Shown here one piece after another: positions 55,337 through 63,794 of a stretch of DNA of 64,000 bases (position 1 is its first letter; every line of letters starts with the position of its first letter). The position numbers were made by a program, and so were the translations under genes. Source of the stretch: Sphaerochaetaceae bacterium (GTDB taxonomy: Bacteria; Spirochaetota; Spirochaetia; Sphaerochaetales; Sphaerochaetaceae); contig JAQQAR010000008.1 of assembly GCA_028532765.1 (NCBI GenBank), forward strand, positions 62,001 through 126,000, written 5' to 3'. The notes beneath the pieces are model-generated. The model saw only the letters and a list, made by a program, of their open reading frames with translations. It made no database searches and was not told the DNA's origin.

Positions 55337-56671
55337 CTACATACCCATCTGTTTAAGCATTGCAGCCTGGTATTTTTTATTTTTTGCTAACTTCTTCATC
55401 GTAAGTCGCATTTTCTCAAACTTTTTCAGCAAACGATTTACATCAGAAACAGTGGTTCCGCTTCCTTTTGCAACACGTTTACGTCTTGTCGGTCCCATTA
55501 TATGGTAATTCGTTCGTTCCGCATAGGTCATTGAAAGGATAATTGCTTTCTCTCGACGAATTTCCTCTGTATCAATGTCATCTTCGCTGACCTGACCCTT
55601 TGCACCGGGAATCATTTCCAGGAGCTGGTCGATCGAACCCATCTTATCCATCGAGTTCAATTGGTCAAGGTAGTCTTGCAGATCGAAGGTGTTCTTTGCC
55701 ATCTTCTCCTGCATGCGAATTGCCTCATTCTCATCGACAACACTCTGTGCTTTCTCAACAAGTGAGACAATGTCGCCCATCCCGAGAATTCGACTTGCGA
55801 TACGGTCTGGATAGAAGGGATCAAGATCCTCGATCTTCTCACCAACACCAATGAACTTGATCGGTTTGCCCACAACAGAACGAAGGGAAAGTGCAGCACC
55901 ACCACGTGTGTCACTATCGAACTTGCTGAGTACAACCCCGCTTATCCCAACTTTCTCCTGGAACTCCTTGGCGATGGTGACAGCATTCTGTCCGGTCATT
56001 GCATCAGCAACAAAGAGTGTCTCATCAGGGGAAATTGCATCACGGACCTTCTGGATCTCATCCATAAGGGTCTCATCAAGATGCATTCGTCCACTGGTGT
56101 CGACGATCAACACATCTCTCTGATCTTTCTTTGCCTGTGCAAGGGCTGCCTTGGCAACTTTTGCTGGGTTTTTCTCCCCTTCAATACTGAAGACGGGTAC
56201 CCCTACTGCCTCACCAAGAACCTGGAGCTGCAGGATAGCAGCCGGTCTGACCAAGTCTGCCGCAACAAGCATGACACGACGGCCTTCTTTTTTCAGGCGT
56301 GAAGCCAGCTTGGCTGATGTTGTGGTCTTACCAGAACCCTGGAGACCCATCATCAGGATGACACTGGTTGTATCAGGGCCCTTGAGCAGAAGCTTCTGGT
56401 TCTCCTCGTCCCCAAGCAGAGCGACCATCCGATCGTAGACAATCTTCACGAATTGTTGACCAGGGTCGACAGCCTTGAGGACTTTCTCCCCTGTGGCTTC
56501 TTCCATGGTCCCATTGATGAAGCGTCTGACAACCCGAAGGTTCACGTCAGCGTCCAGCAAGGCCATCTTAATTTCTTCGACGGCTTCCTGGACGTTCTTC
56601 TCTGTTATCTTGGACTTTCCGGCAAGACTGCGCATGATGCCGGAGAACTTATCGCTTATTGAATCAAACAT
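55337..56671 (-). CDS. ffh: Signal recognition particle protein Ffh (SRP54)
   Basis: The 444-aa SRP GTPase. NG domain: GLQGSGKTTTSAKLA (P-loop), AADLVRPAAILQLQVL, VDTSGRMHLDETLM, DAMTGQNAVTIA, LSKFDSDTRGGAAL and GVGEKIEDLDPF. The C-terminal M domain (ILSMTYAERTNYHIMGPTRR, GTTVSDVNRLLKKFEKM) binds signal peptides and 4.5S RNA. The 4.5S RNA gene was not found in the window. Its receptor gene ftsY is at 17.9 kb. Heads the ffh-rpsP-khpA-rimM-trmD-rplS run. Confidence 0.96.
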   Translation of the reverse strand: MFDSISDKFSGIMRSLAGKSKITEKNVQEAVEEIKMALLDADVNLRVVRRFINGTMEEATGEKVLKAVDPGQQFVKIVYDRMVALLGDEENQKLLLKGPDTTSVILMMGLQGSGKTTTSAKLASRLKKEGRRVMLVAADLVRPAAILQLQVLGEAVGVPVFSIEGEKNPAKVAKAALAQAKKDQRDVLIVDTSGRMHLDETLMDEIQKVRDAISPDETLFVADAMTGQNAVTIAKEFQEKVGISGVVLSKFDSDTRGGAALSLRSVVGKPIKFIGVGEKIEDLDPFYPDRIASRILGMGDIVSLVEKAQSVVDENEAIRMQEKMAKNTFDLQDYLDQLNSMDKMGSIDQLLEMIPGAKGQVSEDDIDTEEIRREKAIILSMTYAERTNYHIMGPTRRKRVAKGSGTTVSDVNRLLKKFEKMRLTMKKLAKNKKYQAAMLKQMGM

Positions 56672-56757: not shown

Positions 56758-59583
56758 CTATTCTTCTATGGTTACCAGTTCCTGGTCGTCGTTGAGGATT
56801 ACATCCTCGCCGGCCACATTGCCGATCTTGTAACTGACCATACTGGAAACCCCTGGTTCCATCTGGGTTACCCCTAAAAGGGTCTGGCTTCCCATGACGG
56901 TGTGCTTATTGTGGGTGATGATGATGAACTGGCTCTTCATGGCAAATTCATCCAATACGGAGAGAAAATACCCGATATTCCGATCATCAAGCGCTGCGTC
57001 AATCTCATCGAGAACACAGAAAGGAGAAGGCTTTACCTGATAGGTGGCAAACAGCAGTGCTACAGCGGTCATCGACCGCTCTCCTCCACTCAAGAGAGAG
57101 AGGTGGGTAAGCTTCTTCCCCGGAGGTTGAGCCAGGATGTCAATGCCACTCTCCAGGACATTGTCAGGCTCCACCAACGTGAGCTCAGCTTTTCCCCCAC
57201 CAAACAGACGACGGAACATCTCCTGGAAGTTATGGGCAATCTGCTTATAGGAAGCAATGAAAAGTTCTTCACTACGGGTCTTGATCTGGGTGATGACGGT
57301 ATCAAGATCATTCTTGGCCCGGTAAAGGTCATCCAATTGCTTACTCAGGAAATCGTATTGTTCCTTTACCTCAGCATACTCTTCTTCCGCCATCTGGTTG
57401 ATGTATCCCATTCCATCAATCTTCCGTCTGACTTCATCCAGGCGGCTCTTCAGTACAGGGATATCGGGGACTTCATCTTCCAGACGATTCTCGAACTCCT
57501 TCAGGCTCTTGCCGTAGTTCTCAAAGAACGTGGTGTAAACTCCGGTGATATTGGTGGCGAGCTGGTCAATCTGCAGTTCCAGCTTCTCTTTCTCTGTTCG
57601 GAGGGTTTGCAGCTGTTCATATGAGGTGTTCTTCTGTTCCTGCTTTTCTCGGATAATCCTGCTCTGTTCATCTATGACTACAACCAGATCCTTGAGCTCT
57701 GCATTCAGGACTGCTATCCGCTCTTTTATCTGTCCTACTTCAGCTTCAACACTGCGGATATCTTCCTGTGTTTCATAGATTCTCTCCTGGGCTGTCTCGC
57801 TGAGCTTCAGTGCATCCTTATATTGGTACTCTTGCTCGGTAAGAGAACGCTGCAGTTTTGTTACCCACTCCTTGGCTCCCTGTTTTTGGGTGAGGAGTTG
57901 ATTCATTGCAACCTTTTGGTCACTGATGGCTTCCTGGTACCGTTCCAAAGCCTGAGTGAGTATATTGTTCTCCTCCCTGAGATAGGCAATCCTTTCTCGG
58001 TTGGTCTGGATCTGTTTTCTTAGATTGACCATTTCTTGATCGAGTTTGCGTTTCTCGCTGATGGTGCCTTCATCAGAGATGAGTTCATCAAGAAAGGTTG
58101 GTTGCATTGCCTCATAGGAGTCAAAGAGAGACTGGACCTGGGCAAGTTCTTTCAACAGTCCTCCCTGGAACTGGGTCTGTCTGTCCAGGAGATCTTCTGA
58201 AGAGATTCCTTTCTGCTTCAGCGTGGCAAGAAAGGTTTGCTCTTCAGCAATACGACCCTTAAGATGCTCAATACTCCCAAGCAGCGCAGTTCTCGCCTTA
58301 TCCTTGTTTTCAAGTGTATAGCCACTCTGTTTCAGTTTCTCTTCGAGTTGGACAACGATAACATCCCCCAGCTCCTTAATCCTCAGGGAAAGTGCATCAC
58401 TATCTGCTTCATAGCTGCTATTGGCATCTTCAAGATCGAGAATTTCCTGATTCTGGTTTGTGATCAGGGTCCTTGTCTGCTCAGCGGACTTCTGGTTCTG
58501 CTCTGTCTCTGCCTGCAGCTGTTCGATTAACTCATCAAGGGTGGCGATATCGGTGAGTTTCTGGTCTATTTCCTCGGTGTCTCGTTCGATGTGTTCCTGA
58601 ATCAGTTCTGCTCTTGCACCAGCCTGGTCTTTCTGCTGGAGAAAATCACGGAATCGTTGGGTAAGCAAATCAAGCTTGTCCGACCTGCCTTTGGTAGCCT
58701 CATCCAGTCTCTGTAGTTCAGTCTGCTTGCTGATTCGCTGTGACCCAAGGGCACGAAGCTCTTCCTGGAGCTGTTCAATCTCCTGGTCAAACTCTGTAAG
58801 TGATCCTCGCTGCGCAGCATAAGCTTCCTCTGAGCGCTGTTTCTGCTCAATTTTATTCTCTCTGAGCAGGAGAAAAGATTTAAGCGTTGACAACTGCACA
58901 TCGACTTCCAAAGAGAACTGTTCAGTCTTGAGCTCTCGGTAGCTGATTGCCTTCGATGCCTGATTCTTCTTGGTCTCGTAGGTTCTCTTCACTTCCTTGA
59001 GGATGGTTTCCACTTGCATAATGTTCTCATCAGTTCGTGCAAGTTTACGTTCTGCTTCCTGGCTCTGGACTTTGAAACGACTTATTCCAGCGGCTTCTTC
59101 AAAGATATATCGTCGGTCTTCAGGTTTTGATGAGAGAATTTGGTCTATCTTGCCCTGTTCCAGAATGGAATAGGCGCTCTTGCCGACTCCAGTATCAAAG
59201 AAAAGTTCCCTGATATTCTTGAGCAAGACTCGGTTCTTGTTAAGGTAGTACTCGCTTTCCCCTGTACGGAAAATTCTTCGTCTGATCTCCACTTCTGGTG
59301 CATCAAGAGGAAGATGATGTTCTTCATTAGAGATTACCAGGGAAACTTCTGCAACCTGGAGTGGTTTACGATTGTCTGTTCCATTGAATATGACGTCCTC
59401 CATCTTCCCAGCACGCAGGGTCTTGGTGGATTGTTCTCCCAATACCCACTTGATGGCATCGACAATATTGCTCTTCCCACATCCATTGGGACCGAGCAAA
59501 CTGGTGATTCCATCGGCAAAATCCAAGCTGACCTTATCTGGAAAAGATTTGAAGCCATATAGTTCCAAGCTTTTTAGAAACAA
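56758..59583 (-). CDS. smc: SMC chromosome-segregation ATPase, short form without a recognisable hinge
   Basis: A 941-aa condensin-like ATPase. The head is complete: GPNGCGKSN (31-39) for Walker A, RRIFRTGESEYYLNKN, SSKPEDRRYIFEEAAGI, and at the C-terminus LSLLSGGERSMTAVALLFA and FCVLDEIDAALDD. Two long coiled coils join them. The usual hinge (about 120 aa, with GRATFLPL-like motifs) is not visible; the middle (around 480-520) has only a short break, YEAMQPTFLDELISDEG. The protein is about 240 residues shorter than typical. The start is TTG at 59583 with GAGGGTG 6 bases upstream. Divergent from rnhB. Confidence 0.9.
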   Translation of the reverse strand: MFLKSLELYGFKSFPDKVSLDFADGITSLLGPNGCGKSNIVDAIKWVLGEQSTKTLRAGKMEDVIFNGTDNRKPLQVAEVSLVISNEEHHLPLDAPEVEIRRRIFRTGESEYYLNKNRVLLKNIRELFFDTGVGKSAYSILEQGKIDQILSSKPEDRRYIFEEAAGISRFKVQSQEAERKLARTDENIMQVETILKEVKRTYETKKNQASKAISYRELKTEQFSLEVDVQLSTLKSFLLLRENKIEQKQRSEEAYAAQRGSLTEFDQEIEQLQEELRALGSQRISKQTELQRLDEATKGRSDKLDLLTQRFRDFLQQKDQAGARAELIQEHIERDTEEIDQKLTDIATLDELIEQLQAETEQNQKSAEQTRTLITNQNQEILDLEDANSSYEADSDALSLRIKELGDVIVVQLEEKLKQSGYTLENKDKARTALLGSIEHLKGRIAEEQTFLATLKQKGISSEDLLDRQTQFQGGLLKELAQVQSLFDSYEAMQPTFLDELISDEGTISEKRKLDQEMVNLRKQIQTNRERIAYLREENNILTQALERYQEAISDQKVAMNQLLTQKQGAKEWVTKLQRSLTEQEYQYKDALKLSETAQERIYETQEDIRSVEAEVGQIKERIAVLNAELKDLVVVIDEQSRIIREKQEQKNTSYEQLQTLRTEKEKLELQIDQLATNITGVYTTFFENYGKSLKEFENRLEDEVPDIPVLKSRLDEVRRKIDGMGYINQMAEEEYAEVKEQYDFLSKQLDDLYRAKNDLDTVITQIKTRSEELFIASYKQIAHNFQEMFRRLFGGGKAELTLVEPDNVLESGIDILAQPPGKKLTHLSLLSGGERSMTAVALLFATYQVKPSPFCVLDEIDAALDDRNIGYFLSVLDEFAMKSQFIIITHNKHTVMGSQTLLGVTQMEPGVSSMVSYKIGNVAGEDVILNDDQELVTIEE

Positions 59584-59601
59584 ATTACACCCTCTTTTTG
59601 C

Positions 59602-59664: not shown

Positions 59665-60294
59665 GTGGAACCGATGCTGTTCGACCTGAACGTTGATAAG
59701 GGAGTTGTCTGTGGCTTGGATGAAGCTGGGCGAGGTCCATTGGCTGGTCCTGTTGTGGCAGCTGCGGTGGTACTACCCCCAGATTTTCCCATTGAAATTT
59801 TAGGGGACTCAAAGCAACTTTCTGAAAAACAACGCCTAGAGGCTGAAATCATCATCAAGGAGCAGTCTCTTGCCTGGGCTGTTGCCAGCGTAACTGCACA
59901 GGAGATTGATAAGATCAACATTCTCCAGGCTTCCTTGCTTGCCATGAAACGTGCCTACGAGAAAGTTAAAGCTCACATTTCAGTCGATACAGCACTCGTT
60001 GACGGAAACCAGAGACCTGATCTTGATTGTACGGTACAGGCAATCGTAAAGGGAGATGCCACGATCCCTGAGATCATGGCAGCCTCCATCTTGGCAAAGA
60101 ACCAACGTGACCGCTATATGGTGCTTTGTGATGCAAAGTGGCCGATCTACCATTTCGCAAAGCATAAGGGCTACCCTACCAAGGAGCATAGGGAGGCTTG
60201 TCTGCTCTATGGGCTCTCTCCCATTCATCGGAAGACATTCTCCATCAAGCAGGAGGGCTCAAGAAAACAGGAGGAGCAGCAGTCACTCTTCTAG
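59665..60294 (+). CDS. rnhB: Ribonuclease HII
   Basis: Removes RNA primers and misincorporated ribonucleotides from DNA. The 209-aa protein has GLDEAGRGPLAGPVVAAAVVL near 14-34 (catalytic Asp-Glu), DSKQLSEKQR, DTALVDGNQ and AASILAKNQRDRYM with the remaining acidic residues. The start is GTG at 59665, set by TAGGAGGTG at 59652-59660; the out-of-frame ATG at 59661 is not used. Followed by the convergent PUR-like gene. Confidence 0.95.
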   Translation: MEPMLFDLNVDKGVVCGLDEAGRGPLAGPVVAAAVVLPPDFPIEILGDSKQLSEKQRLEAEIIIKEQSLAWAVASVTAQEIDKINILQASLLAMKRAYEKVKAHISVDTALVDGNQRPDLDCTVQAIVKGDATIPEIMAASILAKNQRDRYMVLCDAKWPIYHFAKHKGYPTKEHREACLLYGLSPIHRKTFSIKQEGSRKQEEQQSLF

Positions 60295-60329: not shown

Positions 60330-60572
60330 TTAGTCTTTTTTTGCGTTCTGCTTAATGAAATCCAAGGATTTCTGCAATTCTTTCAAAAATTCTCCCAAAT
60401 CTTCTTGATAGACGATAATCGATTGTCTAATGAATCGCTCACTGTCGGGAGTACCTTTGCTTTCCACCATATTGAGAAACATGTCCCCATAGATGTTCTC
60501 TTTTACATTAAAGAAATAAGTCCTGTCATTTTTGACAAGTCTTGTTGAATACACTTCTCCACGTTGTCCCAC
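60330..60572 (-). CDS. PUR-alpha-like nucleic-acid-binding protein (DUF3276, BpuR-like)
   Basis: An 80-aa protein matching the spirochaete/Bacteroidetes PUR-domain family: GEVYSTRLVKNDRTYFFNVKEN, GDMFLNMVESKG, and a C-terminal helix. The Borrelia homologue BpuR binds DNA and RNA and regulates gene expression, including its own. The start is GTG at 60572 with AGGA 8 bases upstream. The smc-rnhB-bpuR neighbourhood is the same as I recall in Borrelia. Confidence 0.85.
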   Translation of the reverse strand: MGQRGEVYSTRLVKNDRTYFFNVKENIYGDMFLNMVESKGTPDSERFIRQSIIVYQEDLGEFLKELQKSLDFIKQNAKKD

Positions 60573-63232: not shown

Positions 63233-63794
63233 TTACTCCTTTTTCCCAGTACGCTCACTCGGTGAACGCTGTCGTAGATATGGTACCAACTCGCCATACA
63301 GACCACGGAAAGCAGTTGCTCCTTTCCCCTTTGCATTGCTTGTCACTACCGGTTTCTGTATCTCACCCATTTTCTCTATCTCACTCGCGAAAGGAATCAC
63401 CGTTTGCAGTGCCTCTTTTCTCTGCAACAACTCCCGGGTAGTCTCTACCTGCAGTTTCTTTCTTCTGTCAAGCATGGAGACAACCATTCTCACTCGTGTA
63501 TCTTTCTGCTCCAATGGAAAGATAGCGATAAGCCGTTGAGGACGGCAGTACATCCAGGGAAGAGAAACTGGTGGCCTGGATTTGCTTCGTCAATTGCTTG
63601 CCACCCTTCACCAATGCAGTTGCATCATGACTTTTCCTCGGCTTTACATCCAGCAAGTAGCTGCTTGACCCCAAGGGGGCAAGATCGAGCAACAATGTCC
63701 GCTGTCCAGCCATCGCAGAGAGCACGGCCAGGTTCACACTGATGGTGCTCTTTCCTACTCCCCCCTTGATGCTGTACACGGCCAATGTTGTCAT
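63233..63794 (-). pseudogene. parA-like ATPase, broken by internal deletion and frameshift
   Basis: The N-terminal frame (63794-63468, 108 codons) has YSIKGGVGKSTISVNLA (deviant Walker A), LLLDLAPLGSSSYLL and LDVLPSSTAYRYLS, then runs into unrelated residues and a stop. The C-terminal part resumes in another frame near 63535 (VVSMLDRRKKLQVETTREL, IEKMGEIQKPV, FRGLYGEL) and ends at 63233. About 65-70 codons between them, including the Walker B/switch II region, are missing, and the total (562 bases) is not a multiple of three. GGGAGG precedes the start, which overlaps the CHAD gene stop. The N-terminal fragment may still be translated. Confidence 0.8.

Follow-up and report, generated by a model that had tools for sequence, protein, structure and literature searches.

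A spirochaete SMC protein with no detectable hinge and a short, predicted helical tip in its place

No hinge is detectable in the SMC protein encoded in the window, by which we mean the whole stretch of 64,000 nucleotides of a Sphaerochaetaceae bacterium that was analysed (assembly GCA_028532765.1, contig JAQQAR010000008.1, positions 62,001 to 126,000), nor in any of the 65 spirochaete SMCs that we compared. In common models of SMC action the hinge is essential for dimerisation and also contacts DNA, and to our knowledge it is generally regarded as a component of every condensin and cohesin. In the spirochaetes that we sampled, its absence extends throughout the phylum. A phylum including Treponema and Borrelia appears to work without a hinge, which makes it a natural counter-example for testing SMC models. 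We consider it fairly probable that a helical tip in the hinge position dimerises the two SMC arms, and that the ring with ScpAB is still closed.

We found no report of hinge loss in spirochaetes in the open-access literature covered by our search. Work by Cobbe and Heck in 2004 and by Soppa in 2001 may be relevant and may remark on short spirochaete SMCs. In the two papers on the Borrelia chromosome, Smc is described as canonical or as a condensin, and a term search did not return the word "hinge" from their main texts (PMC9712426, PMC10406323; here and below, statements on cited papers refer to the parts of their texts that were available). Hinge-less SMCs have already been published for an oceanic actinobacterial clade (PMC12153180).

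Results and discussion

The smc gene and its neighbourhood

The gene, the motifs of its ATPase head and its neighbours in the window are:

56758..59583, minus strand: smc, encoding a 941-aa SMC without detectable hinge; TTG start, with an open reading frame at exactly these coordinates
59591..59594, minus strand: GAGG, resembling a ribosome-binding site, 7 nt upstream of the TTG
59470..59493, minus strand: Walker A, GPNGCGKS, residues 31-38, from the sequence
57079..57093, minus strand: ABC signature, LSGGE, residues 831-835, from the sequence
56986..57012, minus strand: Walker B, LDEIDAALD, residues 858-866, from the sequence
55337..56671, minus strand: ffh (SRP54), directly downstream of smc
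59665..60294, plus strand: rnhB (ribonuclease HII), divergent neighbour of smc
60330..60572, minus strand: gene of a DUF3276 protein

With smc beside rnhB and a DUF3276 gene, whose family we take to be that of BpuR, the smc-rnhB-bpuR neighbourhood named in a preliminary description of this DNA was indeed found. The SMC ATPase head is complete, as Walker A, signature and Walker B are all present. The protein scored 803.8 bits against TIGR02168 (SMC_prok_B), above the equivalog cut-off of 567.35, and matched SMC_N of Pfam at 1.9e-69. Its only cysteines are C35 and C856, so that coil and tip contain none.

Regarding other families, the protein is like Rad50/SbcC in having an ATPase head and a long coil without SMC hinge. 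However, Rad50/SbcC carries a CxxC hook, and the Rad50 and SbcC scores of the window protein were far under the cut-offs. MukB was absent among the 16 Pfam families listed for it at E up to 10. In the 25 rows listed, the matches to JetC were partial and none was full-length (top 1.2e-09, residues 641-777).

A second smc was not found in the genome of the window, where the next SMC_N matches were frames of 565 and 377 aa, presumably of RecN and RecF size, followed by weaker ones. The scpA and scpB genes are neighbours on the contig that contains the window, at positions outside it (C8:41742-42374 and C8:42680-43156). Proteins 98-99% identical to the window SMC include one named Sphaerochaeta sp. 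(P0006), and most of the listed relatives, at 53-99% identity, have 938-977 aa; therefore, the shortness of this smc is not a deletion in a single assembly.

Elsewhere in the window, a ParA/MinD-type ATPase (63233-63794) is apparently split over two frames of the minus strand (63468-63794 and 63233-63553). Either a frameshift or a sequencing error may explain this, and our scan covered the first frame only.

Absence of the hinge

The Pfam hinge family PF06470 gave no match to the window SMC up to E = 10, which agrees with the preliminary description of a 941-aa SMC with intact heads and apparently no hinge, and zero matches in the window genome. In a further run two Bacillota SMCs (1186 aa) matched at 1.4e-31 and seven spirochaete SMCs had no match up to E = 1. 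Nevertheless, PF06470 also misses some SMCs of normal length, namely the Caulobacter control, an SMC that we assume to have a hinge, and that of Phenylobacterium (L157, 1147 aa). For this reason we built a custom hinge profile on 52 SMCs from outside the spirochaetes, consisting of 50 of 80 outgroup loci plus L088 and L089. The outgroup set came from a scan for related loci and holds one partial spirochaete locus (L090), the rest being other bacteria; a locus was left out of the profile before counting if it did not have both head motifs, contained X or had at most 1100 aa.

This profile recovered 51 of the 52 hinged SMCs (the miss in the full test was L091), and 46 of 52 when each was left out in turn. 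A single negative is therefore weak, whereas the result for the spirochaetes is not: none of the 65 SMCs matched, the best E being 0.77. These 65 are the window protein plus 64 loci and represent 32 families by our own tally, 24 of them belonging to one family (f3); 21 end before a stop codon, in all cases downstream of the tip. Fourteen loci were dropped before this count (eight duplicates of genes refetched whole, four truncated and two not smc), and L046 and L059 had no frame of 500 aa. The four truncated SMCs, tested separately, had no hinge either (best E 1.3).

A version of this profile with 44 rows was also run against whole genomes and matched 0 of 247 Spirochaetota. Among 18 genomes or records expected to be hinged, with an SMC outside the profile, it matched 17 (the miss was L115), although five of the 18 are closely related to SMCs in the profile and make the control easier; it matched none of five expected to be hinge-free. 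By PF06470 and the custom profile, no hinge-like protein was found elsewhere in the window genome.

Across 392 Spirochaetota genomes PF06470 gave five matches, two of them above the cut-off. A hidden or split-off hinge was considered here and rejected for the three matches that we examined (L033, L034, L035), since none is the smc gene: L034 is a Wadjet JetC1 (3.8e-161), the L033 protein is nearly identical to it by eye, and L035 has 555 aa and does not look like an SMC. The near-identical JetC1-type proteins of L034 (G116) and L033 (G318) come from two different spirochaete families, and this looks like a recent transfer.

Distribution in Spirochaetota

At E 0.001, TIGR02168 matched 390 of the 392 genomes, which were drawn from a larger group, and 316 scored above its cut-off with two candidates scored per genome. 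In a repeat search of 30 genomes that allowed up to 16 candidates each, two (G149 and G278) were still without an SMC-grade match, so some spirochaete genomes may lack smc.

PF06470 was absent from all the relatives listed, in two sets of 120 rows with eight in common. Named relatives without PF06470 include Sphaerochaeta globosa (949 aa), Gracilinema caldarium (1003 aa), Spirochaeta africana (939 aa), Treponema brennaborense (977 aa) and Treponema phagedenis (1028 aa). The Borrelia homologue had been described as short, and this was borne out by 48 Borreliaceae rows of 800-821 aa, none with PF06470; some were assigned by identity (55-100% to a Borrelia anserina SMC), and B. burgdorferi is not among the names listed. 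In the same table, PF06470 was present in 66 of the 67 rows of at least 1146 aa. A short SMC has not necessarily lost its hinge, because an Erysipelotrichaceae SMC (L117, 984 aa), similar in length to the window protein, keeps its hinge (PF06470 at 1.6e-30).

The survey of ScpA and ScpB that had been proposed gave ScpA (PF02616) in 331 and ScpB (PF04079) in 334 of the 392 genomes, the window genome having both. One family, f5, accounted for 17 of the 20 genomes listed without a ScpA match and 18 of the 20 listed without a ScpB match; 41 and 38 further misses lie beyond these listings. Family f5 holds the Borreliaceae, as the protein of L063 (G101) has an identical counterpart in Borrelia anserina. 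In B. burgdorferi, ScpA is present and ScpB is lacking (PMC10406323). By contrast, PF02616 found no ScpA in the 17 f5 genomes listed without a match, where the protein may be too divergent for the family model.

Arms and tip

The coil of the window protein can be divided as follows:

58327..59082, minus strand: N-terminal arm, residues 168-419 (252 residues), from the AlphaFold model and the alignment
58066..58326, minus strand: tip in the hinge position, residues 420-506, with predicted helices 424-457, 462-492 and 497-502 and no strand
58051..58116, minus strand: conserved tip motif, residues 490-511 (Y490, F497, G506, K511)
57259..58065, minus strand: C-terminal arm with joint, residues 507-775, from the AlphaFold model and the alignment

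The centre had been described as continuous coiled coil, but the AlphaFold model breaks the helix at four places (420-423, 458-461, 493-496 and 503-506) and sets three tip helices between the two arm helices. The Pro/Gly break near residues 480-520, noted in the same description, belongs to the helical tip of about 420-506. The monomer model contains no strand at the centre and no globular hinge fold at the end of the coil. Thus, neither of the two outcomes named in that description as speaking against it, a hinge match or such a fold, was obtained. Confidence in the tip is moderate (10-residue means of 65-84 over 421-510), and we regard it, at that level, as a predicted small all-helical bundle. 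The centre of a Borreliella model is likewise without strand, at low confidence (36-55 over 371-450). Foldseek and VIA matches to the whole protein were to heads and coils.

When the limits of the window model were transferred to an alignment of the 65 spirochaete SMCs, the N-terminal arm had exactly 252 residues in 56 and the C-terminal arm 267-270 in 55, and the tip had 55-111 residues (median 91). Between the same columns B. velezensis has 297, 194 and 375 residues for N-terminal arm, middle and C-terminal arm, compared with 252 and 269 for the arms of the window protein. Two Spirochaetota SMCs, L081 and L082, have long arms (294 and 343) with a short tip and a similar tip motif, which suggests that the hinge was lost before the arms shortened.

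Within the coil, conservation is highest at the tip. In a set of 70 sequences, just three residues from 208 to 726 are invariant, namely F497, G506 and K511, all at the tip. The most strongly conserved 15-mer of the coil has its centre at 504 in this set (z 4.5) and at 508 in the set of 65 (z 5.8). Nevertheless, the motif is not universal in the 65, where K511 is found in 58, G506 in 56 and F497 in 53, and a loose pattern of it was present in two and absent in two of four further spirochaete SMCs.

Two identities for the tip were tried and given up. A zinc hook is excluded, since none of the tip regions, in the set of 65 or in that of 70, contains a CxxC motif. A relic of the hinge exit was unsupported (hhalign probability at most 8.6%), and a regular expression for the hinge exit was dropped because it fitted only 9 of the 52 hinged SMCs.

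What the tip may do

In our reading, the window protein is the chromosomal SMC of this spirochaete, with a short conserved tip, predicted to be helical, in place of the hinge. We propose that the tip probably acts as a substitute dimerisation element joining two SMC arms; together with ScpA and ScpB, SMC would still form a closed ring around DNA, and the complex would load and move DNA like other Smc-ScpAB complexes. That the tip does the dimerising job is the economical reading because heads, arms and ScpAB are kept. The canonical Smc-ScpAB of the Bacillus subtilis type (TIGR02168) has a hinge of 112-207 residues in 49 hinged SMCs, whereas the window SMC has the helical tip instead. B. subtilis Smc requires dimerisation at the hinge but not the hinge fold itself, as a Rad50 zinc hook works in its place (PMC5344682). 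If the spirochaete tip dimerises, the two cases are alike in having an unrelated element at the end of the arms; however, the engineered Smc is man-made and zinc-dependent, and the window coil and tip are without cysteine. As ParB recruits Smc to oriC in B. burgdorferi and deletion of smc reduces long-range contacts (PMC9712426, PMC10406323), a Borreliaceae Smc is active in cells. Against a dimerising tip, its conserved residues could instead serve to bind DNA or protein.

Rather unlikely, in our judgement, is that the tip is a mere turn of an antiparallel coil, the SMCs being joined only by head engagement and ScpAB, with no closed three-part ring. A centre with neither hinge nor strand would agree with this, and the authors of the Borrelia Hi-C study consider bridging by incomplete complexes (PMC10406323). 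However, a turn needs a few residues rather than 55-111 and three additional helices, nor would the most strongly conserved part of the coil be expected there; furthermore, B. subtilis Smc is non-functional once hinge dimerisation is lost (PMC5344682).

We give a low probability to the tip serving to dock another protein, or DNA, which would do the work of the hinge in its stead, with a pairing partner encoded elsewhere. The conserved Y490, F497, G506 and K511 would suit any interface, but no hinge-like protein turned up in the rest of the window genome, nor did a candidate partner in a search confined to ScpAB.

A true hinge, homologous and with the same interface, shrunken beyond recognition, seems very doubtful. 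In one alignment the glycine motif of the tip does fall opposite the glycine motif at the hinge exit of B. velezensis; on the other hand, the profile-profile probability of tip against hinge did not exceed 8.6%, neither the window nor the Borreliella model has a central strand, and 55-111 residues compare with 112-207 in the 49 listed hinge segments. An assembly deletion or decaying pseudogene, for which the short length alone would speak, can practically be discarded, given intact heads and a layout common to relatives across the phylum.

A further point against the dimerising tip comes from B. burgdorferi. Its chromosome has no inter-arm contacts, unlike those of other bacteria with Smc, for which the authors suggest the missing ScpB (PMC10406323). 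All the Borreliaceae Smc listed here are without hinge, and this may help to explain why the B. burgdorferi chromosome lacks arm alignment in Hi-C.

Origin, and hinge loss outside the spirochaetes

In a quick tree of the heads the window protein groups with other spirochaetes. The 28 spirochaete rows need two changes, although the well-supported branches force only one, and long branches (Borreliaceae, L061) blur the tree. Long-armed lineages (L081, L082) and short-armed ones have tip motifs that resemble each other, which favours a single spirochaete origin of the hinge loss. The hinge would then have been replaced once, at the base of the phylum, and the tip may have been further shortened in Borreliaceae.

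An architecture specific to spirochaetes had been suggested, and it does run through the phylum in the samples; however, it is not confined to it. Three SAR11 SMCs (L142, L146 and L161; 811, 812 and 857 aa) had no hinge by Pfam or custom profile. In a survey of the SAR11 order 110 of 117 genomes matched, with frames of 799-891 aa among the matches listed apart from five exceptions of 348-746 aa, taken as truncated; the hinge test itself comprised three of three SMCs. In the quick tree of the heads, SAR11 branches with full support from within Alphaproteobacteria that have the hinge, so its hinge loss is separate from that of the spirochaetes. By the same two tests a Bdellovibrionales SMC (L149, 902 aa) had no hinge.

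The oceanic actinobacterial SMC resembles the window protein in having head and coil without hinge or CxxC zinc hook (PMC12153180). That clade is marine, metagenomic and monophyletic, whereas the spirochaete trait spans a phylum with cultured members. The available parts of the paper contain no tip motif or ScpAB survey, and spirochaetes, Pelagibacter and SAR11 are absent from them by term search.

Taking this together, we see about even chances that a spirochaete ancestor swapped the hinge for a new, unrelated helical dimerisation tip on arms of fixed length, keeping the ScpAB ring, and that the same loss happened independently in SAR11. If true, nature would have found a replacement for the hinge fold at least twice.

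Finally, a hinge was not detected by Pfam or custom profile in an Omnitrophota SMC (L091:3001-6339, 1113 aa). By eye, a short region of this protein around residues 500-560 does not look like coil and may be a further replacement.
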